Shown here piece after piece: positions 3,072 to 55,271 of a stretch of 64,000 nucleotides of DNA. Origin of the DNA: an uncultured Bacteroidota bacterium (GTDB lineage: Bacteria; Bacteroidota; Bacteroidia; Bacteroidales; P3); the NCBI GenBank assembly GCA_902788805.1, contig CADALO010000001.1:248001-312000 (forward strand), given 5' to 3'. Made by a program: the position numbers and the translations under genes. Numbering within the stretch: the stretch's first letter is position 1; each line of letters begins with the position of its first letter. The notes under the pieces are model-generated. The model was not told the origin of the DNA. It saw only the letters and a program-made list of their open reading frames with translations, and made no database searches.

Positions 3072-3161
3072 GGAGAGATGCCGGAGTGGTCGATCGGGGC
3101 GGTCTCGAAAACCGTTGACCAGCTTGCTGGTCCCAGGGTTCGAATCCCTGTCTCTCCGCCA
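3072..3161 (+). tRNA. tRNA-Ser (anticodon CGA)
   Basis: A complete class II tRNA of 90 bases including an encoded CCA. The acceptor stem ggagaga pairs with tctctcc. The anticodon stem gcggt/accgt carries the loop ctcgaaa, giving anticodon CGA, which reads UCG serine codons. A long variable arm (tgaccagcttgctggtcc) and a T arm with ggttcgaatcc follow. It has its own promoter upstream and a rho-independent terminator immediately downstream. Confidence 0.97.
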
Positions 3162-13870: not shown

Positions 13871-13942
13871 TTGCTATATATATTTTTAAACAATAACATC
13901 CGAAACCGGTTTTTAGTATGTCCCGCACCCTATTTTTTCCGT

Positions 13943-14046
13943 ACCAACACTGGTCGTTGTACAATATATGTACAATAGTTGTACAATATATGTACAATTG
14001 GTAAACGTACAAATATTGTACAAGTATTGTACATATATTGAGGTGG
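13943..14046. repeat. Long intergenic palindrome, sub-family A, copy 1
   Basis: Imperfect palindrome of about 104 bp between divergent genes. The left arm has four 11-bp units (core tgtacaat) starting with cgttgtacaat at 13955; the right arm has only three complementary units, the outermost having been lost. The loop is aattggtaaac. The left flank ccaacactggtcg matches the flank of the sub-family B copy at 54454; the right flank is degraded (gaggtggcg). It ends about 70 bp upstream of the -33 box of the phosphatase promoter. The rest of the 330-bp gap holds only that promoter. Confidence 0.9.
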
Positions 14047-14114
14047 CGTTTTTCGGGGCAAAAACGCATTCTGTCGCAAACGACATATCTTTTGTGAAAA
14101 ATGTCGGTGTTTTC

Positions 14115-14145
14115 TTTGCTATATTGAAAACTTTTTGTAAATTTG
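14115..14145 (+). promoter_or_regulatory. Promoter of the LMW phosphatase gene
   Basis: TTTG at 14115-14118, 19-bp spacer, taaatttg at 14138-14145. This is an exact fit to the Bacteroidetes TTTG-N19-TAnnTTTG consensus. Confidence 0.75.
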
Positions 14146-14200
14146 CAATGCAAATAACAAGAACATAATTTGCTATTTATTTGTCAATCAGAAAATAGTA

Positions 14201-14713
14201 ATGAAAACTGATATGGATAACTCGAACAAATACGGCGTCATCTTCGTATGCCACGGCAATATTTGCCGCAGTCCGATGGCCGAATTTATCCTTCGTCGAC
14301 TCATAAACCAGGCCTCGCTTGCCGACTATGTGGAGATTGCTTCGGCGGCTACATCCGACGAGGAAATCGGCAACCCTGTCTACCCCCTTGCAAAACGCAT
14401 TCTGGCCACCCACGGCATCGGCTGCCGCCTGAAGACGGCCCAGCGCCTTACCCCCAAGATGTACGACCAATACGACCTCGTTATCGGTATGGACAGCCGC
14501 AATATCGAAAACATCAAACTCCTGATAGGCGACCGACCCACCGAGAAGCTGCATCGGCTGCTCGACTTCCTGCCCGACGACAGTCCCGACCACGGGCGCG
14601 ACATCGCCGACCCTTGGTACACGCGCGATTTCGAACGCGCCTACAGCGACATCCTTCTGGGCTGCAATGCCCTCGCGGAACACCTGAAGGCCTCCATCGT
14701 TGTCGAAGAATGA
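14201..14713 (+). CDS. Low-molecular-weight protein tyrosine phosphatase
   Basis: A 170-residue LMW-PTP. The catalytic P-loop C(X)5R-S reads CHGNICRS (nucleophile Cys17, Arg23) and the general acid is in the conserved DP pair of IADPWYTRDF (Asp137). Such enzymes dephosphorylate protein tyrosines, often of polysaccharide-export tyrosine kinases, in the cytoplasm. No kinase or capsule gene lies next to it here, so the substrate is open; arsenate reductase activity is unlikely because the extra cysteines of that branch are absent. The ATG at 14213 (MDNSNKYG) is an alternative start. It has its own promoter. Confidence 0.92.
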   Translation: MKTDMDNSNKYGVIFVCHGNICRSPMAEFILRRLINQASLADYVEIASAATSDEEIGNPVYPLAKRILATHGIGCRLKTAQRLTPKMYDQYDLVIGMDSRNIENIKLLIGDRPTEKLHRLLDFLPDDSPDHGRDIADPWYTRDFERAYSDILLGCNALAEHLKASIVVEE

Positions 14714-19926: not shown

Positions 19927-20888
19927 TGCTTCAAGTTGTTGTCAGTAACCAGACCAATCCTTATTGGAATGTGGCAGTCGAGAATTATCTTGTCTCGCGT
20001 AAGTTGGACGATACGGTGGTTATGTATTTGTGGAAAAACCATCGCACTGTGGTCATTGGACAGAATCAGAATCCCTTTTCGGAGTGCAATGTCGATGCGT
20101 TGCTTGCCGATGGCGGATATGTGATGCGCCGCACTACCGGCGGCGGTGCTGTCTATCACGACGACGGCAACATAAACTTCAGTTTTGTCGCACCGTATGA
20201 CCTTTATGATCAGCAGAAACAGTTTGAGGTGATACGTACTGCAATGCGCGATTACGGTCTTGAAACAGAGCTCAGTGGGCGCAATGATATACTTTGCAAC
20301 GGGCGCAAATTCAGCGGCAATGCTTTTTCTAAAGGTCAATTCCAACGTCTGCACCACGGCACAATCCTCATCAAGGGCAATATTGACGACCTGTCACGTT
20401 ACCTTAAAGTACGGCCTGCCAAACTGCATAAACACGGTGTTGCATCGGTGCAGAGCCGTGTTGTTAATTTGTCGGAATTGGCCGATATTACCAGTGATAA
20501 TATTGTGCCGCATCTGATTAAGGCCTTTGAAACGGTGTATGGAGCTAAATCAGAGATTATTGAATTTGATGATTTTGTTCGTAAGGTCGAGGTCTTGAAT
20601 CTTTATAATAAGTACAGCAGCGACGAATGGCTCTATGGCAAATGGCGTAATTTCACTGCCTTGCGTAGTGGCCAGTTTGACTGGGGCAGTGTGGACCTTA
20701 GCCTAACTGTGGACGAACAACGACATCTCATCACCGATGTCGCTGTTGCTACCGACGCGCTGGATGTCAATCTGGTTGACACAATACGGAAACTACTTGT
20801 TGGAACGTCGTCGGTTATTGCGCCGGTGGCGCCGTCAGATGTCGACAAAACCATTGCAAACGATATTATTTCGCTGGTGTATGAGTAA
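19923..20888 (+). CDS. lplA: Lipoate-protein ligase A
   Basis: A 321-residue cytoplasmic ligase that attaches scavenged lipoate (via lipoyl-AMP) to lipoyl domains of 2-oxoacid dehydrogenases or GcvH. The diagnostic RRTTGGGAVYHDDGNINFSF block is at residues about 62-81, with GNAFSKGQFQRLHHGTILI further on. The C-terminal accessory domain (about 240-321) is present, so it is the full-length two-domain form. The gene begins ATGATG; the first ATG overlaps the stop of the PorQ-like gene. A bidirectional terminator follows immediately. Confidence 0.93.
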   Translation: MMLQVVVSNQTNPYWNVAVENYLVSRKLDDTVVMYLWKNHRTVVIGQNQNPFSECNVDALLADGGYVMRRTTGGGAVYHDDGNINFSFVAPYDLYDQQKQFEVIRTAMRDYGLETELSGRNDILCNGRKFSGNAFSKGQFQRLHHGTILIKGNIDDLSRYLKVRPAKLHKHGVASVQSRVVNLSELADITSDNIVPHLIKAFETVYGAKSEIIEFDDFVRKVEVLNLYNKYSSDEWLYGKWRNFTALRSGQFDWGSVDLSLTVDEQRHLITDVAVATDALDVNLVDTIRKLLVGTSSVIAPVAPSDVDKTIANDIISLVYE

Positions 20889-20925
20889 AAACAAAGCAGG
20901 CACATTAAGGTGCCTGCTTTGTTTT
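20887..20925. terminator. Bidirectional terminator between lplA and pta
   Basis: aaaacaaagcaggcac/gtgcctgctttgtttt perfect stem with loop attaag. A runs on the left and T runs on the right allow use from both strands. Confidence 0.88.
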
Positions 20926-27712: not shown

Positions 27713-29014
27713 TTAACAATCTTCAAACACTTCTTCGTTGGCGACAAATCTACGCAGCGTGAATCCGTCAATTGTGTTGGCAAGTTTCTCGGCCTCGGTG
27801 GGCGAAGCTACCGGTCGCCGCACGCGGATGTAATTGTCTGTGAAACCGTAGATCTTGCCTCCTTTTATGTCGCTTTCCCACAGCACCGGGCGTGTCTTGC
27901 CTTGCTGTTGCAGGTAGAATTCCTGCTTCTTGCGGTCCGACAGCTCCTGCATCAGGCGGCTGTGCTCGCGACGGTGATGCACGGCAATGCGTTCGCCCAT
28001 CTGCAAGGCGGCGGTGTTGGGGCGCTCGCTGAAGGTGAAGACGTGCAGATAGGAGATGGGCAGCCCCTCAACGAAGTGCATTACCTTCTCAAACTCCTCG
28101 TCGCTCTCGCCGTTGAACCCCACCATTATGTCGGCGGCGATGCAGGCATCTGGCATAGCAGCCTTGATTTTGTCCAGTAGCGAGGCGTAGAAAGCCGTGT
28201 CGTAGCGTCGGTGCATTAGGCTCAGCACCTTGTCGCTGCCTGCCTGCAGCGGAATGTGGAAGTGGGGCAGGAAAGCACGCGAATGGGCCACGAAGTCGAT
28301 AATCTCATCAGTCAGCAGATTGGGCTCTATGCTTGAAATGCGGTAGCGTTCAATGCCTTTCAGCTTGTCCAGCTCTTTCAGCAGACCGAAGAAGGTCTCC
28401 CCGTGGCGTTGGCCGAAGGTGCCGGTGTTCACACCTGTCAGCACCACCTCCTTGGCTCCGCTGGCCTCTATCTCACGCGCTACGGCTATGGTGTCGGCAA
28501 TGCTTGCACTGCGCGAACGGCCGCGCGCGAAGGGGATGGCGCAGTAGGTGCAGAAATAGTCGCATCCGTCCTGAATCTTGAAGAATGTGCGTGTGCGGTC
28601 GGCGTGCGAGTAGGCTATGTTGAAGGGGTAATCCCTGTCTTTTTGTGCCACGGGTTGGTTGTCGCCGCTCCGCTCTTTCATAAAAGCCTCCACATAGCGA
28701 AGCAGGTCGTGCTTGCGGTCGTTGCCGAGAATGATGTCCACACCCTCGATTTTCGCGATTTCTGCCGCCGCGTTCTGCGCAAAGCAGCCAATCACTGCGA
28801 CTATGGCCTCTGGATTACAGGCGATTGCCTGTCTGATAGCATTGCGGCATTTCTTCTCGGCAATGGCTGTAACCGTACAAGTGTTTATGATAAAAAGGTC
28901 GGCGGCTTCGTTAAAATCCACCTGCTCCCAGCCGGCAAGGGTGAAACGGCGCATAATGTCCGAAGTTTCGGCAAAATTCAGCTTGCAACCAAGGGTGTGA
29001 GCGGCTATTTTCAT
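27713..29014 (-). CDS. mtaB: tRNA t6A37 C2-methylthiotransferase MtaB
   Basis: A 433-residue radical SAM methylthiotransferase that makes ms2t6A37 in ANN-decoding tRNAs. The N-terminal UPF0004 domain has the three cluster cysteines Cys10 (HTLGCKLN), Cys46 (NTCTV) and Cys77 (IGCFAQ). The radical SAM motif CDYFCTYC gives Cys151, Cys155 and Cys158. The C-terminal region ending near residue 425 corresponds to a TRAM domain. The HTLGCKLN start separates MtaB from MiaB and RimO. No neighbour is functionally linked. Confidence 0.93.
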   Translation of the reverse strand: MKIAAHTLGCKLNFAETSDIMRRFTLAGWEQVDFNEAADLFIINTCTVTAIAEKKCRNAIRQAIACNPEAIVAVIGCFAQNAAAEIAKIEGVDIILGNDRKHDLLRYVEAFMKERSGDNQPVAQKDRDYPFNIAYSHADRTRTFFKIQDGCDYFCTYCAIPFARGRSRSASIADTIAVAREIEASGAKEVVLTGVNTGTFGQRHGETFFGLLKELDKLKGIERYRISSIEPNLLTDEIIDFVAHSRAFLPHFHIPLQAGSDKVLSLMHRRYDTAFYASLLDKIKAAMPDACIAADIMVGFNGESDEEFEKVMHFVEGLPISYLHVFTFSERPNTAALQMGERIAVHHRREHSRLMQELSDRKKQEFYLQQQGKTRPVLWESDIKGGKIYGFTDNYIRVRRPVASPTEAEKLANTIDGFTLRRFVANEEVFEDC

Positions 29015-29199: not shown

Positions 29200-29307
29200 A
29201 ATTCGAACAACGGATTCGCCCATTAGAATAGGCTTTCGTAATAATTTGGATTTTGTAATAGTGTTTAATGTGAACCGGAACGATGTGGTATCGTTCCGGT
29301 TTTTTTA
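29200..29307 (+). ncRNA. Candidate small RNA (about 105 nt)
   Basis: A consensus promoter (29163-29193) and a strong rho-independent terminator (29273-29307, with a run of seven Ts) on the same strand frame about 105 bases that hold no open reading frame of note. The genes on both sides are on the opposite strand, so neither signal serves them: the terminator has its T run only on the plus strand. The 3' end overlaps the last codons of the MORN-variant gene (ends 29305), so the RNA would be antisense to its terminal bases. No known RNA family was recognised. Confidence 0.45.
29273..29307 (+). terminator. Rho-independent terminator of the candidate small RNA
   Basis: aaccggaacgat/atcgttccggtt stem with loop gtggt, followed by ttttttatt on the plus strand. 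The minus strand continues cacatt, without a T run. Confidence 0.8.
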
Positions 29308-30327
29308 TTCTTCGTCCAGTTGATCGACCCGTTGCAGCGAGCGGATCATTTTGATACATTCTTCATCAGGGAAAATTGTGAAAGGCGGTTTGGGCGACAG
29401 GTCCAGTATGTCGCGTCCGTCGGCGTCTTTCTTTATGCCTACAATGCTGCCGGTGTTGGCCATCACTCTCGACTTGCGGTCTATCATCACGAATTGTTCG
29501 TGACCCACGCGCTCGTTGATGGCGTCGGGCGAGTCGGTGCAGGCCAGTTTCGACTCGTCGTTGAGGTACACCAGTGTGCCGTTTGTCCCTTTGGGCACTA
29601 TGTAGGCGATGCCGAACACCGACTGCCATTTTGCGCCCGAAGCAGTGTGCAGCAGTATCTTGCGGTCGGCAAGTATGCCCTTCTGCCAACTCTCGTCGAC
29701 GGTGCATTCGCCGTTCTCAAAGTACTGGTACTTGCCCTCCTTGACGCCGTCTTTGTAGTTGCCCTCGCGCACTTTCTTGCCGTCGTTGCCGTATTCTACA
29801 AGTTTGCCTTGCATCAGCCCCTTCTCGTAGCGGCCTGTAATCCAGCCTTTCTCGCCTATGCGCTTCCACCAGCGGCCGTCGCGGTGGTTGTCTTTCCAGT
29901 TGGCCACCTCAACGGTGTCGCCTTTGGAGTTGAATATGATGTGGGCGCCTTCTTTGATGCCCATCTTGTACGATGCAATCTTCACCACCTTGCCCTCGTC
30001 GTTGTAGAAACGCCATTCGCCGTCACGGTTCTTCTGGTTATAGTAGCCCGATGCCAGCAGTTTGCCCTGTTGGTTGTAGGCCTCGTGCGTGCAGTAGCGG
30101 CCGGGAACGGTGAAGGTGTTGCGGATCTTCAGTGTGCCGTCGGGATAGTAGTAGTTGAACGTGCCGGTTTCCTTGCCGTCAACGAAGTCGCCTTCAAAGA
30201 TGCGGCTGCCGTCCTTGTCGGTTTTTATCCAGTGTCCTTGGCGGAGTCCGTTTTTGTCAATCTTGTTCTGTGCGTTGCAGGCAAAGCCCAAGCACAAGAG
30301 TGTCAGTACGATAAGTCTGTATTTCAT
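29305..30327 (-). CDS. Secreted MORN-variant (YwqK-type) repeat protein
   Basis: A 340-residue protein with signal peptide MKYRLIVLTLLCLGFACNAQ. Residues about 21-240 are a series of MORN-like repeats of the YwqK variant, 21-25 residues each, for example GLRQGHWIKTDKDGSRIFEG, GTFNYYYPDGTLKIRN, GEWRFYNDEGKVVKIASYK, GKLVEYGNDGKKVREGNYKD and GKYQYFENGECTVDESWQ. The last 100 residues are a separate domain (WQSVFGIAYIVPKGTNGTLV). Such repeats form solenoid beta sheets; function here is unknown. The frame is open to 30429, but the ATG at 30327 starts the signal peptide and has a minus-strand taaatttg promoter box 28 bp upstream (30355-30362). Confidence 0.82.
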   Translation of the reverse strand: MKYRLIVLTLLCLGFACNAQNKIDKNGLRQGHWIKTDKDGSRIFEGDFVDGKETGTFNYYYPDGTLKIRNTFTVPGRYCTHEAYNQQGKLLASGYYNQKNRDGEWRFYNDEGKVVKIASYKMGIKEGAHIIFNSKGDTVEVANWKDNHRDGRWWKRIGEKGWITGRYEKGLMQGKLVEYGNDGKKVREGNYKDGVKEGKYQYFENGECTVDESWQKGILADRKILLHTASGAKWQSVFGIAYIVPKGTNGTLVYLNDESKLACTDSPDAINERVGHEQFVMIDRKSRVMANTGSIVGIKKDADGRDILDLSPKPPFTIFPDEECIKMIRSLQRVDQLDEE

Positions 30328-30442: not shown

Positions 30443-30547
30443 TACCAACTCCGGTCGTTGTACAATATATGTACAATAGTTGTACAATACTTGTACAATT
30501 GTAAACGTACAAATATTGTACAAGTATTGTACATATCGGAGTTGGTA
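30443..30547. repeat. Long intergenic palindrome, sub-family A, copy 2
   Basis: A 105-bp palindrome with perfect 11-bp ends (taccaactccg ... cggagttggta). The left arm has four 11-bp units (cgttgtacaat, atatgtacaat, agttgtacaat, acttgtacaat); the right arm has three complementary units and lacks the outermost one together with two flanking bases. The loop is aattgtaaac. It lies in the 302-bp spacer upstream of the MORN-variant gene and downstream of the gene ending at 30630, both on the minus strand. I see nothing else in 30548-30629. Confidence 0.92.
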
Positions 30548-30629
30548 CCTTGAATGGATGGAAATGAAGTGGTTATGCAATAATGGCGTTTTATTGCGTT
30601 ATTCGATGAAAATCAATAAGTTGGCCGGA

Positions 30630-31127
30630 TTAGTATTCCAAAGTCTCGGTTCTGATGCGGTTTATTACCTGTTTTGTGGCCGTGTCGCTGATGTCGTGGC
30701 GGCGTATCGAGGTGCGCGATTTGGCTGGCGCTGTCGCTTGGGTGTCGGCAGGGGCGGGGTCTTGTGGAATCCACAGGTTGTTGTCTTCCTCCTGGCTTCG
30801 CGACGAGGTCGTTGCCGGCTTGAGGTAGACGCGTTCGCGCACGGCGTTGAACTGCACGGTGTATTCCCTGTGCTTGGGGTCGGGCTTGATGGTGCGTGTC
30901 ACGGCCACCTCAAAGGGGTCGTCGATGACTATGCGTATGTGGTATTCTTTCTGTTCCAGTCCTTTGATTGTCACCATTCCCGACGAGCGTTCGTTCTGCA
31001 GCGCGCCGTTGAGGTAGACAAAGAATTTGGCGTCGGTGATTGATGTGAAGGTAAGCGTTTCGTCCTGGGCGCGGACGGTGCCGAAGCTGAGAGCCAGCAA
31101 GATAATTGTCAATAGGCGGTGTTTCAT
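30630..31127 (-). CDS. Small secreted protein, resembles the leader domain of DUF4476 proteins
   Basis: A 165-residue protein with signal peptide MKHRLLTIILLALSFGTVRA. Residues about 22-95 have the pattern LTFTSITDAKFFVYLNGALQ, NERSSGMVTIKGLEQKEYHI, RIVIDDPFEVAV, which resembles the N-terminal beta domain seen before DUF4476 in Bacteroidetes and, more loosely, PEGA domains. The rest is a disordered Pro/Ala/Ser/Thr linker and a short charged tail. No DUF4476 follows. Divergent from the TonB-dependent receptor gene. Confidence 0.65.
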   Translation of the reverse strand: MKHRLLTIILLALSFGTVRAQDETLTFTSITDAKFFVYLNGALQNERSSGMVTIKGLEQKEYHIRIVIDDPFEVAVTRTIKPDPKHREYTVQFNAVRERVYLKPATTSSRSQEEDNNLWIPQDPAPADTQATAPAKSRTSIRRHDISDTATKQVINRIRTETLEY

Positions 31128-39653: not shown

Positions 39654-39770
39654 ACCAACTCCGGTCGTTGTACAATATATGTACAATATTTGTACAATAT
39701 ATGTACAATTGGTAAACGTACAAATATTGTACAAATATTGTACATATATTGTACAACGACCGGAGTTGGT
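39654..39770. repeat. Long intergenic palindrome, sub-family A, copy 3 (complete type copy)
   Basis: A 117-bp palindrome with two 53-bp arms (39654-39706 and 39718-39770) that differ at a single position, around an 11-base loop aattggtaaac. Each arm begins accaactccggtcg and carries four 11-bp units whose core is tgtacaat; the unit core ttgtacaa is itself a palindrome. It lies between the divergent GT4 and DegQ-like genes. The rest of the 323-bp gap holds the GT4 promoter box and, on the right, no clear promoter. Confidence 0.96.
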
Positions 39771-44863: not shown

Positions 44864-45958
44864 TTATATATAATATATATAACCTCTGTCGTGTTCCGAA
44901 ATTCGGCAGGCAAATTTACTAAATTTTTCTGAAATTACACTACAAATTAATTCTTTTGCAAATCTTTCGCTTTCGTAGTGGCCGATGTCCACCAGAACGA
45001 TGTCGCCTCCAGCGGCTTGGAAGTCGTGGTATTTCAAGTCGCCCGTCAGATATACGTCGGCGCTGCAGCTCTTGGCATCGCCCATCAGGAAACTGCCCGA
45101 GCCGCCGCACACAGCCACACGCTTCACCTTGTTCAGGCACAGTTCCGAGCAGCGCAGGACTTTAAGCCCCGTCACTTGCTTCACCATCTCCAGGAAGTCG
45201 TACATAGGCATCTCCTCGCCAAGCTCGCCGACCATACCGGCGCCGACACTCATTAGCTTGTTGGCCAGCGGAATACAGTCGTAGGCTGGCTCCTCGTAGG
45301 GGTGCGCCTTGAGCAATTTGCCGATCAGCCGTCCTTCGATGCGGCTCTCGTAAATCACCTCGATGCGTGTCTCGCCTTCGCGGTGTAGCTCGCCGATGCT
45401 GCCGCAATAGGGGTTGCATCCTTCGCCAGCGCGGAACGTGCCGGTACCGACACTGTTGTAACTGCAACAGTCGTAGGCTCCTATGCCTCCTGCACCGGCT
45501 GCGAACAATGCTTCGCGCACTTCATCGGCCTTGTCTTTAGGGACGTATGTCACCAGCTTGCGCAGCGCGCCGCTTACAGGCCTCAGCACCTTGCAGCGTT
45601 CCAGTCCCAACTGGCGGCACAAAACACCGTTCACGCCCCAGTCCAGATTGTCGAGGTTGGTATGTGCGGCGTAGGCACCTATGCCGTTCTCAATCAGTCG
45701 TGTAACGAGTCGTCCTGCCTCGTCGCCGGTGGTGATGCGTTTCATACCTCCGAAAATCAGCGGGTGGTGGCTTACAATCAGATTGGCGCCGGTCTCAATG
45801 GCTTCGTCCACAACGCTTTCGGTTACATCGAGCGCCACCAGTACGCCTGTCACCTCACGTTCCAGGTCGCCGACCAGGAATCCGGCGTTGTCGTACGACT
45901 CCTGATAAACGGGTAAGAATCTGCTGTTCAGATACTCAACAACTTCTCGTGTCTTCAT
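44864..45958 (-). CDS. Nif3-like dinuclear metal centre protein
   Basis: A 364-residue member of the Nif3/YbgI (DUF34) family, which forms hexameric rings with a two-metal site. Metal-binding residues are seen in NLIVSHHPLIFGG (two His) and near the C-terminus in VDIGHYESERFA (His and Glu). The central insert (about 125-230, VTYVPKDKADEVREALFAAG) is the PII-like domain of the longer form. Role unresolved; GTP cyclohydrolase-like activity has been suggested for relatives. The ATG at 45958 is chosen; the open frame continues upstream through the palindrome at 46082-46194, which cannot be coding. The zinc-ribbon gene lies 104 bp downstream. Confidence 0.92.
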   Translation of the reverse strand: MKTREVVEYLNSRFLPVYQESYDNAGFLVGDLEREVTGVLVALDVTESVVDEAIETGANLIVSHHPLIFGGMKRITTGDEAGRLVTRLIENGIGAYAAHTNLDNLDWGVNGVLCRQLGLERCKVLRPVSGALRKLVTYVPKDKADEVREALFAAGAGGIGAYDCCSYNSVGTGTFRAGEGCNPYCGSIGELHREGETRIEVIYESRIEGRLIGKLLKAHPYEEPAYDCIPLANKLMSVGAGMVGELGEEMPMYDFLEMVKQVTGLKVLRCSELCLNKVKRVAVCGGSGSFLMGDAKSCSADVYLTGDLKYHDFQAAGGDIVLVDIGHYESERFAKELICSVISEKFSKFACRISEHDRGYIYYI

Positions 45959-46081: not shown

Positions 46082-46194
46082 GTCCGTTCGTTGTCCAGTC
46101 GTTGTCCAGTTGTTGTCCAGTTGTTGTCCAGTCATTGACTGGACAACAACTGGACAACGAGCGGACAACGACTGGACAACGATCGGGAACGGAC
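46082..46194. repeat. Long intergenic palindrome, sub-family B, copy 1
   Basis: A 113-bp palindrome centred on cagtcattgactg. The left arm has four 11-bp units in perfect register (cgttgtccagt at 46089, 46100; tgttgtccagt at 46111, 46122). The right arm has four complementary units (actggacaac type), one of them changed to agcggacaacg. The outer ends gtccgtt/aacggac also pair. It lies between divergent Nif3 and DUF748 genes. It ends 72 bp before the -33 box of the plus-strand promoter. The remainder of the 364-bp gap is AT-rich leader sequence. Confidence 0.94.
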
Positions 46195-46266: not shown

Positions 46267-46297
46267 TTTGCAAAATAATACTTTTTTATTATTTTTG
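46267..46297 (+). promoter_or_regulatory. Promoter of the DUF748 gene
   Basis: TTTG at 46267-46270, 19-bp spacer, tatttttg at 46290-46297: consensus fit, about 25 bp before the start codon. A second tatttttg occurs at 46263-46270. Confidence 0.7.
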
Positions 46298-46322
46298 CAT
46301 TTTTGAAACAAGTAGGCATTAT

Positions 46323-48602
46323 ATGAAAAAGTGGTTGAAAATCACGCTGATAATCGTGGCGAGCATATTGTTGCTGCTCGTTATTGTACTCTCTGTGGCC
46401 CCGCACATAGCGAAGGGCTACGTCAACCGTCACGGCAAGGAACTCATAGGGCGCGAAATAAGGGTCGAGAAACTGCGGCTCAACGCGCTGAGCGGCCGCG
46501 TGCGCATCTATGACCTCACGGTCTTTGAGGATGACGGCACCACGGCATTTTTCTCGTTCGATACGCTCGACGTGTCGGTCAAGCTGCGCAAACTGCTTGC
46601 CAATGAGCTTTATGTGCGCCACATCACGTTGGCCGAGCCGCGTATAAGGGTGATTCAGGATGGCGACCGCTTCAACTTCAGCTCCATTATCGACCACTTT
46701 GCGTCGGACGACGATGAGACGGACGACGATACGACGTCGAGCAACTGGCGTTTCGGCTTTTATAAGATACGTCTGTCGGAGGGCGAAATCTACTATGCCG
46801 ACCCGAAGTTGGGAGGTGAGTGGGATCTTAAGAATTTGAATATCAAAGTGCCCGGAGTGTACTTCGATGGCTCGGAAAACACCGATGCCGGCCTGGCGCT
46901 GAAGCTTGCCGACGGCGGTACGCTGCGCACCGAGGCGTCGCTCAATATGGACAACAACGACTTCGCGGTGGATTTGGATTTGGAGCAGTTTGCCATCTCC
47001 AACGCCCGCGCATATCTGGCCGACATAATGAACGTGGGCAAGATGGAGGGACAGTTGGATGCTGATATTCAGGTGAAAGGCAACCTGAACGACATCTTGA
47101 GGATGAACATTGGCGGCAAGGTCGACTTGAGTGGTGTCGACATCCGCGACACGAAGAAAGAGCAGGTGTTGGCCTGCAACAAACTGTCGGTCGACGTGAA
47201 CCGCATCAATGTGAAAGAGAATCTGTATGATGTCAAGACGGTGATGATTGACGGTCTTACGTCGCACTTCGACTTATACAAGGACGGCAGCAATTTCTCG
47301 CGGCTTTTCGCTGTCGGCTCTTCTGACGAGAAACAGGCTGAGACCCAACCTAATGCCGAGCCTGCCGCCGCCGAAACGACCGCCGAGCAGTCGTCGCCGG
47401 CCAAGCCGTTCGACCTGCGTGTGGGCAAGTTGGCGTTGCGCGACGCCGAGTTCACATTCAACGACTATTCGCTGCCCGACGCTTTCTCGTTCCCCGTCAA
47501 GAAGCTGAACGTCAGCGCTGAGAACATTTCTTCGCTGGGTGACAGCAAGGCTCGCGTGTCGGCTCATCTGCCGCACGGCGGTATGGCGTTCGTGAAATGG
47601 CAAGGCAACATCGACGAGTGGAAGCATCACCAGAACCTTGTGCTGACAATCAAGAACTTGCAGTTAAAAGATTTGTCGCCTTACGCGGTGGCTTATCTCG
47701 GTCATCCGCTGACTGACGGCACCTTCTCGTTCACCAGCGAGAACACCATCCTCAACAGTCAGCTTGAAGGCCGCAACAACCTCGACTTGTTCAACCCCGA
47801 GGTGGGCGAGAAGCGCAAGGATGTGGAGCCTCAGGTCAAGATACCGCTCAAGGCGGCGCTCTATGTGCTTAAGGACAAGGACAATAAGGTGCAGTTCGAC
47901 GTTCCCGTCGCGGGCAATATCGATTCGCCCGAATTCTCTTATATGAAGATTGTGTGGAAGACGCTGGGTAACCTGCTGGTCAAGGTGGCTACGTCGCCCT
48001 TCCGCGCTGTGTCAAAGGCTCTTGGCGTGAGCGGCAACCTCGAGTATATTGCCTTCGACCCGCTGCAGGCGCAGTTCAATTCGGAGCAATACAATACGCT
48101 TAACAAAATGGTCGAGGTGATGCAGTACGACACTTCTATAGTCGTCACGTTCGCTCCGCAGATCAACATCCAGGAGGCTGCCAAGCGGCAGAGCCTCTAT
48201 CTGCTTAAGGAAGAGTATTATATTACGCGGCACCCCGAGAAGGCCAACTCGTCGATTTTGCCGCAGGCAATACTCTATGGCGAGGTGAATGCCATTACGG
48301 TCAAGGACACCGGCTTTGTGTCGTTCCTGCACAGGAAAGGGCTGTCGTCAAAGCGTCCGACCGACAAGGAGGTGCAACGCCTTGCGGAGCGGCTTTATCC
48401 GCACGACGCCGCCATCGAGAGCCTGGCCATCGTGGGTGGCTATCGCGACGAGTTCCTTAAACGCCATTTTGCCGGCCAGGGTATATCAGAAGGTCGCATA
48501 AGCGTTGACACGCCCGACAACAATGCGATGCAGTCGGGATATGTGGTCAATTCGTCGCTGATGGGCGACGAGGGCCTCGACGAGGAGATGGAGGAGGAGT
48601 AA
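46323..48602 (+). CDS. DUF748/AsmA-like inner-membrane-anchored protein
   Basis: A 759-residue protein with one N-terminal transmembrane segment (LKITLIIVASILLLLVIVLS) and a long periplasmic part. The start of the domain (GREIRVEKLRLNALSGRVRI, YDLTVFEDDG, FDTLDVSVKLRKLLANELYV) matches the AsmA/DUF748 pattern shared by bridge-like proteins that move phospholipids between membranes. The later block FNSEQYNTLNKMVEVMQYD is typical of the DUF748 C-terminal region. A disordered Ala/Glu/Thr insert lies at about residues 335-360. The exact role here is inferred from the family only. The TerB-DnaJ gene follows after 36 bp. Confidence 0.85.
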   Translation: MKKWLKITLIIVASILLLLVIVLSVAPHIAKGYVNRHGKELIGREIRVEKLRLNALSGRVRIYDLTVFEDDGTTAFFSFDTLDVSVKLRKLLANELYVRHITLAEPRIRVIQDGDRFNFSSIIDHFASDDDETDDDTTSSNWRFGFYKIRLSEGEIYYADPKLGGEWDLKNLNIKVPGVYFDGSENTDAGLALKLADGGTLRTEASLNMDNNDFAVDLDLEQFAISNARAYLADIMNVGKMEGQLDADIQVKGNLNDILRMNIGGKVDLSGVDIRDTKKEQVLACNKLSVDVNRINVKENLYDVKTVMIDGLTSHFDLYKDGSNFSRLFAVGSSDEKQAETQPNAEPAAAETTAEQSSPAKPFDLRVGKLALRDAEFTFNDYSLPDAFSFPVKKLNVSAENISSLGDSKARVSAHLPHGGMAFVKWQGNIDEWKHHQNLVLTIKNLQLKDLSPYAVAYLGHPLTDGTFSFTSENTILNSQLEGRNNLDLFNPEVGEKRKDVEPQVKIPLKAALYVLKDKDNKVQFDVPVAGNIDSPEFSYMKIVWKTLGNLLVKVATSPFRAVSKALGVSGNLEYIAFDPLQAQFNSEQYNTLNKMVEVMQYDTSIVVTFAPQINIQEAAKRQSLYLLKEEYYITRHPEKANSSILPQAILYGEVNAITVKDTGFVSFLHRKGLSSKRPTDKEVQRLAERLYPHDAAIESLAIVGGYRDEFLKRHFAGQGISEGRISVDTPDNNAMQSGYVVNSSLMGDEGLDEEMEEE

Positions 48603-49490: not shown

Positions 49491-49550
49491 AAAACAGGGG
49501 GTTGAATAGGACAATAGAAAGACTTTTGTCCTATTCACCCCCCTGTTTTT
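49491..49550. terminator. Long terminator hairpin
   Basis: A 24-bp stem with one mismatch (aaaacagggggttgaatagg... with its complement ...ctattcacccccctgtttt) and an 11-base loop, with A and T runs outside. It separates convergent genes and is unusually long for a terminator. Confidence 0.85.
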
Positions 49551-53137: not shown

Positions 53138-53138
<1 letters not shown>

Positions 53139-54313
53139 TATAGTTTGTATTTTTTCTTGTCGGTAAAACGGTCCAGAAGCCTGACTTCAAGCGTCAGGAC
53201 AATCGGAATAACGGCGCTGTTGAAGCTCTGGGGCCACATACTGAAGCCCACGAGGAAGGCCAGCAGAACGCATCCGATGAGCAGCGTCATCACGCGGTTT
53301 TGGTGCCGCAGACGCACCAGCAGCCACATATACAGCGGGTTGGCCCACAGCAGGTTGAAGTTGGCCTTGGTGCACCAATGGTCGCTGAAGAAAGTCATAT
53401 AGATAAGCAGCAGCGACACGGCGCAAACGGCGGTGTATACAATGCCATCGAGCCAATAGAGCTTCCACTTGGCGCGGCGCGCCATCAAAGTTATAATCAG
53501 CACGATGGCAAACAATATCCAGAAGCACATCGTGGGCGACACGCTGCGGGGCAGGGACTGCCTCGTCTCGTCAAGCATCTGCGCCGACGGTTCTGCAAGA
53601 GCCTCTCCATCAGTGAGTAGCAATGTGTCAAGCTGCCACATCATCTCGGTTGGGATATAGGCATACTGCGACTTTGTCATTACGTGGTCGCAGTTGGCGC
53701 CAAGAAGCAGGTCGACGCCCAGCCGCCACCACAGCAGCGTGCTGTCGGTGTACTTGTAGACCAGGTCGCGGTAGGTCTGCTTCGTGTCGGGGTAGTCGTC
53801 GGGCGGCAGGCTGCGCCCCTTGAGGGCCGCCGCCACCATATCCCAAATGCGCGTGGCGCAGTTGTCGCGGAAGAAATCGTATTTATAGTATCTGTTCTCG
53901 GGTCGCAGGTTGATTACCAGCATCTTGAACAGCGTGTCCAGCTCGCTTTTGCTCAGCCTAAGGCGCTGCTCGTAAACCGAACGGCCGAAATAAGAATACT
54001 CCAACCAGAAGCCACCGAGCGACTCTGTGGTGACAAGATAATTGAGCCTGCCTCCGGCAAAACGCAAATAGAAATGCGGCTCGCTGAAGTCGAAAGTGCC
54101 GTAGTTGAACACCACGTCGAGGCCCTGCACGCTGTCGCATATCCTCAGCGCCGAATGGCCGAACGACTCATAGAACTCGTCGCCAGGACCGCAGGTCAGA
54201 ACGCTCGCAAAGGCCGAGTCGGACAACCTGCCAGGCATACGCTCCGCACTTTGCCCCTGCATCGAAAAACTGCACAACAGCAATAGAATCAGTAATATAA
54301 TGCTCCTTCGCAT
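53138..54313 (-). CDS. DUF4105 (Lnb N-terminal-like) membrane protein
   Basis: A 391-residue protein. A signal peptide (MRRSIILLILLLLCSFSMQG) is followed by a DUF4105 domain at about 20-235: VLTCGPGDEFYESFGHSALR, VFNYGTFDFSEPHFYLRFAG, and YYKYDFFRDNCATRIWD. The His in GHSALR and the Cys in RDNCATR are conserved family residues and could form a catalytic pair, as in NlpC-like folds; that is inference. The C-terminal 130 residues contain about five transmembrane helices. The ATG at 54313 is chosen over 54337 because it begins the signal sequence. First gene of a three-gene minus-strand operon with the two DUF3857 proteins. Confidence 0.88.
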
Positions 54314-54453: not shown

Positions 54454-54566
54454 CAACACTGCTCGTTGTCCAGTCGTTGTCCAGTTGTTGTCCAGTTGTT
54501 GTCCAGTCATTGACTGGACAACAACTGGACAACAACTGGACAACGACTGGACAACGGACGGTGTTG
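54454..54566. repeat. Long intergenic palindrome, sub-family B, copy 2 (complete type copy)
   Basis: A 113-bp palindrome with two 56-bp arms around a single central T (cagtcattgactg). Each arm has four 11-bp units of cgttgtccagt or tgttgtccagt. Apart from three mismatches in the outer flank the arms are perfectly complementary. The left flank caacactgctcg closely matches that of the sub-family A copy at 13943 (caacactggtcg). It lies between divergent DUF4105 and apt genes. Nothing else is seen in the 382-bp gap beyond the promoter boxes on both sides. Confidence 0.96.
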
Positions 54567-54695: not shown

Positions 54696-55271
54696 ATGAA
54701 TTATAAAGACGTTATCAATCACTATCCCGATTTCCCGAAGCCCGGTATAAACTTTATCGACATTATCCCTTTTATGTCGAACAAGGAGGCTTACAATCAG
54801 CTTGTTGCCGATCTTGACGCCAATGTCCACAGCCCCAACGTCATTACCGTCGAGGCCCGCGGATTCCTATTTGCCGCTCCGCTGCTCACCCAGTCGAAAC
54901 TGGTGCAGAACATCGTGCCCATTCGCAAGAAGGGCAAGCTGCCTTTTGCCAAGGGCGATTTGCGCGATGTGCAGATAATGAAGGAATATGGCCCCGACCA
55001 CGTCTTCTACCGTCTGTCGGACATTGCGGCAGGCAAGCCTGAGGGCGACACGTTCTACCTGTCGTTCTTCGACGATATACTGGCTACGGGAGGCACCGCG
55101 GCAGGCATTGCCGAGTCGCTCAACCGCGAGCGTATTGTGCTCGACGGCAAGGAGTACAAGGTCAAGGTTCGTGAATTCATCTTCATCGTCGAGTTCCCTG
55201 ACCTCTACGACCACGCACGGCTGGAAGCCATAGCGCCAATCAAATCGTTTGTCAAGATAGAGGGCGACTGA
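54696..55271 (+). CDS. apt: Adenine phosphoribosyltransferase
   Basis: A 191-residue purine salvage enzyme forming AMP from adenine and PRPP. The PRPP-binding motif is FFDDILATGGTAAG. The N-terminal INHYPDFPKPGINFIDIIPF and the ARGFLFAAPLL segment that binds adenine are typical of Apt. The frame is open from 54594, but the ATG at 54696 gives the standard start and sits after the promoter. It is convergent with the RyR-domain gene, whose stop is 2 bp away. Confidence 0.95.
   Translation: MNYKDVINHYPDFPKPGINFIDIIPFMSNKEAYNQLVADLDANVHSPNVITVEARGFLFAAPLLTQSKLVQNIVPIRKKGKLPFAKGDLRDVQIMKEYGPDHVFYRLSDIAAGKPEGDTFYLSFFDDILATGGTAAGIAESLNRERIVLDGKEYKVKVREFIFIVEFPDLYDHARLEAIAPIKSFVKIEGD

Follow-up and report, generated by a model that had tools for sequence, protein, structure and literature searches.

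Palindromes of the window and their anatomy

The spacer between a minus-strand NIF3-like gene (44864-45958) and a plus-strand AsmA/DUF748 gene (46323-48602) holds a long palindrome at 46082-46186, built of four 11-bp units per arm (unit TTGTCCAGTTG). Between the palindrome and the AsmA/DUF748 gene, and facing that gene, lies a promoter-like region on the plus strand (46268-46307) with Bacteroidetes-type -33 and -7 boxes, a motif match only. Beyond about 46178 the outermost right bases of the palindrome have no mirror image in the left arm, which may be an assembly defect. A second copy of the same sub-family (B), at 54454-54566, occupies the divergent spacer between the gene for an Lnb-type periplasmic protein (53138-54238, minus strand) and a plus-strand gene without a family assignment (54696-55271).

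Three further palindromes belong to sub-family A, whose unit TTGTACAATAT also has an 11-bp period. The copy at 13942-14040 lies in the divergent spacer 13871-14200, flanked by genes for a lipocalin-like protein (minus strand) and an LMW phosphatase (plus strand), and a second promoter-like motif match (14115-14150, plus strand) stands between it and the gene at 14201, which it faces. The outer right arm of this copy is missing, probably through an assembly defect, and the same probably holds for the shortened right arm of the copy at 30443-30548. The third copy, at 39654-39770 in the divergent spacer between a glycosyltransferase gene (minus strand) and a trypsin/PDZ protease gene (plus strand), is intact on both sides. 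None of the five palindromes is assigned to a strand.

The window, by which we mean the whole 64-kb stretch analysed (G000:C1:248001-312000), comes from the genome of an uncultured Bacteroidales, 2.73 Mb in 25 contigs. The five long palindromes of the original prediction are present: exactly five hairpins with an 11-bp period were detected, and the same detector, applied to 20 first-order Markov surrogates of the window, returned zero hairpins. Four of the five sit between divergent genes. The copy at 30443, described in the original prediction only as upstream of a minus-strand gene, sits in a tandem spacer, some 80 bp past the stop of the upstream member of a co-directional minus-strand pair (29305-30327 and 30630-31127). 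The core TTGTACAAT occurs 11 times in the window (0.3 expected) and the core TTGTCCAGT 16 times (0.5 expected). Both are confined to the elements, with the sole exception of one TTGTCCAGT at 28170, and on this ground single sites resembling uptake sequences were rejected. Two convergent spacers of the window also hold strong hairpins, without the 11-bp period (49491-49549 and 20888-20925), which are probably ordinary terminators. In Rfam no family matched the palindromes of the window, the only match being a tRNA at 3072-3158.

Both sub-families share one layout, in which two opposed arms of about four 11-bp units each flank a short loop and continue into a variable but largely complementary outer stem. 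The palindromes measure about 100-117 bp, with termini TACCAAC...GTTGGT or variants, and all 23 of the 23 B copies scored have four units per arm on both sides. Searching by loop pattern gave 61 A and 24 B copies genome-wide. This count of at least 85 is a minimum because both loop patterns overlook a palindrome with yet another related unit, the third (TTGTCCGCTTG/ATGTCCGCTTG; L140 74-164, at about 18.3 kb of contig C12), and additional third-unit copies may lie elsewhere in the genome. Within genomes the core is invariant across hundreds of units, an invariance partly built in since units were selected by core match, and positions 1, 10 and 11 vary freely.

The right flanks of many A copies (for example L123 and L137) carry a common sequence past the palindrome, CCCTTGAAAGgCTGGAAATGAGGCGGTTA..., and a weaker relative of it, CTTGTAAcTTgCTGGTAATGA, stands alongside some B copies; the inherited unit may be longer than the palindrome itself. 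On the left, GGCAGGCAGGGATGCCTGCGC precedes the A copies at C1:72848, C3:215332, C3:224564, C5:68984, C6:426 and C8:10748, and these same flanks hold tandem CTTTCACTCCC-like or ACGCATT-like repeats, another accompanying repeat family.

Damage to the outer arms falls on one side. Among A copies of the window genome, 35 are damaged on the high-coordinate outer arm only, none on the low-coordinate arm only and one on both (loci L061-L138), and in the sister genome (G214, loci L208-L247) one-sided damage is distributed 29 high-coordinate to 0 low-coordinate. The damage is independent of loop strand. We regard it as an artefact because no biological process knows the orientation of a contig, and truncated right arms were rejected as a biological feature, one-sided damage being confined to the high-coordinate side in both of these assemblies. 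The relative G215 has about equal damage on both sides (3:2), and the scoring pattern was unsuited to a further relative, G216. The likely cause is the assembly of many near-identical palindromes. Several palindromes lie exactly at contig ends, as in G101. The pattern carries a warning that metagenome assemblies damage such palindromes systematically on one side.

Placement relative to genes and promoters

Genome-wide, the elements prefer divergent spacers. With genes placed by a custom codon-usage caller, the 75 classifiable copies divide into 43 divergent, 24 tandem and 8 convergent; a further 10 stand at contig ends, and none lies inside a gene. The earlier statement that no palindrome occupies a convergent spacer is true of the five in the window, and for the genome it gives way to these 8 of 75. 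It is uncertain whether the 24 tandem and 8 convergent copies lie outside transcripts.

Occupancy was compared among spacers of at least 100 bp, taking spacer length minus element length. In stretches of the window genome 39 of 63 divergent, 7 of 17 convergent and 21 of 122 tandem spacers are occupied, and the corresponding figures for the sister genome, sampled in 20-kb stretches, are 26 of 40, 0 of 13 and 12 of 112; as these stretches were picked around elements the absolute occupancies are too high, the contrasts being less affected. The unselected window has 4 of 7 divergent, 0 of 2 convergent and 1 of 14 tandem spacers occupied. The divergent-tandem contrast is significant in all three samples. 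Equal use of convergent spacers, which would count against the promoter reading, was not found: the divergent-convergent contrast has p = 4e-5 in the sister genome and, taken alone, is not significant in the stretches of the window genome (p = 0.17). Palindromes of the relatives show the same preference, with 14 divergent, 10 tandem and 1 convergent in G215 and 7, 5 and 1 in G216.

The Bacteroidetes-type motif TAnnTTTG is enriched 20-120 bp upstream of genes relative to the opposite strand and is therefore valid in this genome. Among 88 element-gene pairs with a -7 motif, scored by motif match only, the motif falls between element and gene in 75; in 3 pairs it overlaps the element, and in the other 10 it is on the far side. 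Promoters stand anywhere between 7 and more than 900 bp away from the edge of the element, with medians of 149 bp for the low side and 118 bp for the high side, so that the proposed spacing of 55-80 bp is no rule; distances taken from the right side are unsafe because the right outer arms are hit by the assembly artefact. The uniform loop orientation once seen in the window proved a coincidence of five. Orientation is mixed genome-wide (A, 27 plus and 34 minus; B, 18 plus and 6 minus), and of 18 orthologous pairs between the window and sister genomes 5 have opposite orientations; loop orientation as a signal of replication or strand was rejected for these reasons; inside damaged palindromes the orientation may be unreliable. 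What survives the tests that were run is the core of the original prediction, namely a DNA-level role at promoters or a preference for insertion upstream of genes rather than termination, and the arguments from loop orientation and from a fixed -33 spacing fail.

Shared sites and constraint on the unit

Close relatives, found via the adjacent AsmA/DUF748 gene, are uncultured Bacteroidales mostly from the ruminant gut. In three of their loci (L143, L144 and L154; 71-76% protein identity) an 11-bp-period palindrome likewise occupies the spacer ahead of the orthologue of the 46323 gene. It is the only one in each locus, and its unit is TTGTACAGTAT or TTGTACGGTAT and not that of B. Across these three and 40 fetched loci of G215 and G216, syntenic spacers carry a palindrome in both genomes in 12 cases, in the relative only in 2, in the window genome only in 0 and in neither in 44 (Fisher p = 1e-10). 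This table holds one site twice (L143 = L186), and the 46323 spacer makes up four of its twelve shared rows. Restricting it to spacers of 150 bp or longer gives 12, 2, 0 and 11 (p = 2e-5). The test is conditional, since the stretches were centred on palindromes; non-homologous copies would appear as discordant spacers.

All 15 of the 15 copies that could be mapped from the window genome onto sister stretches have an orthologous copy. The orthologue of the A palindrome at 39654 is found at L142 3312-3428 in the sister genome, with compensated stem changes. In the reverse mapping 16 are present; the detector picked up no counterpart of one B palindrome, and an unrelated hairpin is likewise absent. 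This B palindrome (L231 9233-9327 in G214, compared with L135) coincides with a large alignment gap and may represent gain, loss or misprojection.

Three more distant species of the genus (G101, G104 and G135) gave 0 shared sites and 3 discordant spacers. Because none is shared with these species, sites are gained and lost over longer times. Matches to a generic pattern run into the tens to hundreds in certain species of the genus and stay at background level in the rest, and a narrower pattern has almost nothing in the family's other genera. Sampled stretches of pattern-poor species hold 11-bp-period palindromes with the unit TTATACCTTAG (G113) or, more weakly, a TTATTCGATCG-like unit (G102), and a hairpin of G122 (TTCTTCAGTCG) scored 0.59, just below the detector cut-off. 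The skeleton TTnTnCnnT is common to most of these units.

The near-invariance of the core is also evident between orthologues. In 18 orthologous A pairs of the window and sister genomes the core TGTAC..T differs at 3 of 571 positions (0.5%), the core and linker labels being set by matches in the window genome, which at most halves the apparent core rate. Unit positions 7-8 show 0 differences in 189, linker positions differ at 34 of 285 (12%) and flanks at 914 of 6512 (14%). Homogenisation of whole elements, whether by conversion or by assembly collapse, would affect linkers and cores alike; a selected recognition core explains this contrast. Collapse of repeats in assembly could hide some core variants, and linkers vary nonetheless. 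Recognition for dispersal alone is disfavoured because the decaying old copies then expected are not seen. As in iteron arrays, sites are regularly spaced, with a constrained core and free linkers. At the level of sequence, these comparisons point to putative sequence-specific binding sites that would be kept by selection.

A candidate binding array and its alternatives

We hypothesize that the element is an array of double-stranded DNA binding sites. Its 9-bp sites, about four to a row and spaced 2 bp apart to give the 11-bp period, would form two rows running in opposite directions, with the site skeleton TTnTnCnnT in the window genome and the best-sampled species. A sequence-specific and probably cooperative DNA-binding protein would occupy the array between divergent promoters, and the bound array would separate the neighbouring promoters through a DNA-level action, whether as insulator, as silencer or as architectural node. 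We put the probability of this reading at about one half. The presence of A and B dialects of the unit in one genome suggests two related proteins or two binding modes. Counting against the binding array, simple tandem binding sites do not require palindromicity, the distance to the promoter is variable, and positions are unshared with distant species.

The main rival, to which we grant a real if minor chance, is a slow non-autonomous mobile or REP/MITE-like repeat, tolerated in or inserting into promoter-bearing divergent spacers and homogenised by ectopic recombination, the dialects being master sequences. Palindromes are recombinogenic. The elements are dispersed, intergenic and multicopy, their unit is species-specific with no positions shared by distant species, and two identical 93-bp copies stand at separate places in G135 (L259 and L261), all of which fits such a repeat. 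However, among mapped copies no clean empty site was seen between the sister species, bar the one B case, and old shared copies show no decay of the core while their linkers drift. The sister genome makes hardly any use of convergent spacers, which are likewise free of promoters, and neither a target-site duplication nor a mobilising gene was found. Movement as REPIN-type elements by the genome's own RAYT (Y1_Tnp) transposase seems very improbable. The window genome has three Y1_Tnp genes, one of which (L140) has a palindrome with the 11-bp period at a distance of about 1.3 kb, beyond another gene; yet the palindrome-rich G130 and G136 gave no Y1_Tnp match, G134 and G106 are absent from the 73 listed genomes with a match, and L139 and L141 lack flanking REPs of the 11-bp family. 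Hairpins beside the Y1_Tnp genes of relatives (L275, L276) are of another kind, without the period, and no 20-40 bp palindrome with a GTAG or CGTC tag at its base was seen. The equidistant palindromes beside Y1_Tnp in L140 and L276 were put down to coincidence, the two loci being on opposite strands. The relatives' Y1_Tnp genes are flanked by paired short hairpins of the type usual for REPs (L275 919-1245; L279 9187-9579, as in L276), which form a repeat family separate from the 11-bp palindromes.

A transcribed hairpin, whether a bidirectional terminator, a 5'-UTR stem or a small RNA, would account for a stem that is very stable by sequence and for the tandem and convergent copies that lie downstream of a gene. 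We think it unlikely: convergent spacers are rarely used, and those of the window at 49491 and 20888 hold hairpins without the period instead; 75 of 88 pairs have the promoter motif on the gene side of the element; the flanks and ends have no common T-run; and Rfam gave no match. Placement at gene 3' ends, as for a terminator, does not describe the family, 43 of 75 copies being divergent. Little likelihood also attaches to a topological element that forms a cruciform and so takes up the negative supercoiling arising between divergent promoters, its sequence mattering through pairing only. It agrees with the strong preference for divergent spacers, with the compensated stem changes between orthologues and with the concordance of the two arms, which exceeds that of shuffles somewhat in the A copies of the window genome and also in G215 and G216, weak evidence in itself. 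Pairing alone, however, leaves the invariant core with its free linkers and the constant 11-bp period unexplained, and arm concordance is not seen for the B copies of the window genome or for G214. Loss of SbcCD as the cause of palindrome tolerance was rejected, SbcD being present in the window genome and several palindrome-rich genomes and absent in others.

No description of this palindrome family was found in the openly accessible literature. The nearest described element in the order is the BrickBuilt MITE of Porphyromonas gingivalis (PMC4596501), which is also a multicopy, always intergenic element of Bacteroidales with tandem short repeats near promoters. BrickBuilt is a minisatellite of 23-nt direct repeats between small inverted ends and carries promoters (PMC4596501), whereas here the repeat is 11 bp and opposed in two arms, the whole element is palindromic and it lies outside promoters. 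REP, BIME and REPIN elements with their RAYTs (PMC3116915, PMC3733652, PMC8049555) are similarly dispersed extragenic palindromes with species-specific sequences and long persistence. In contrast to their 20-40 bp units, the elements described here are about 110 bp long with iterated 11-bp modules and no GTAG tag seen; they have no consistent RAYT link, favour divergent and not convergent spacers, and keep positions common to near relatives while the unit changes. Intrinsic terminators share the stable stem and the intergenic location but not the lack of a T-run, the scarcity in convergent spacers or the periodic arms of about 50 bp.

In geometry only, the binding array resembles the low-affinity DnaA sites of Escherichia coli oriC, where four 9-mers with 2-bp spacing make up each of two arrays of opposite orientation (PMC6070618, citing Rozgaja et al. 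2011). There the arrays occupy one origin locus, whereas here they occupy at least 85 loci and the unit varies between species. The three bases that end the DnaA box consensus TTATNCACA are missing from the units (TTGTACAAT, TTGTCCAGT, TTATACCTT, TTATTCGAT and others), and neither a DnaA gene nor an origin was found in the sampled stretches around elements. By analogy with this geometry we tentatively propose an undescribed class of element, in which paired opposed 9-mer arrays over a large share of the divergent promoter regions of one Bacteroidales genus might be bound by a filament-forming protein in the manner of DnaA on oriC, with site and protein dialects changing together and positions fixed among near relatives.

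It is usual to write off dispersed bacterial palindromes as selfish repeats or as terminators. In this family the position, the geometry and the constrained core are separable from sequence, in that near relatives retain the site and respell the unit. The idea that these are binding sites maintained by the host is directly testable, and the series of dialects is a route to the cognate protein.
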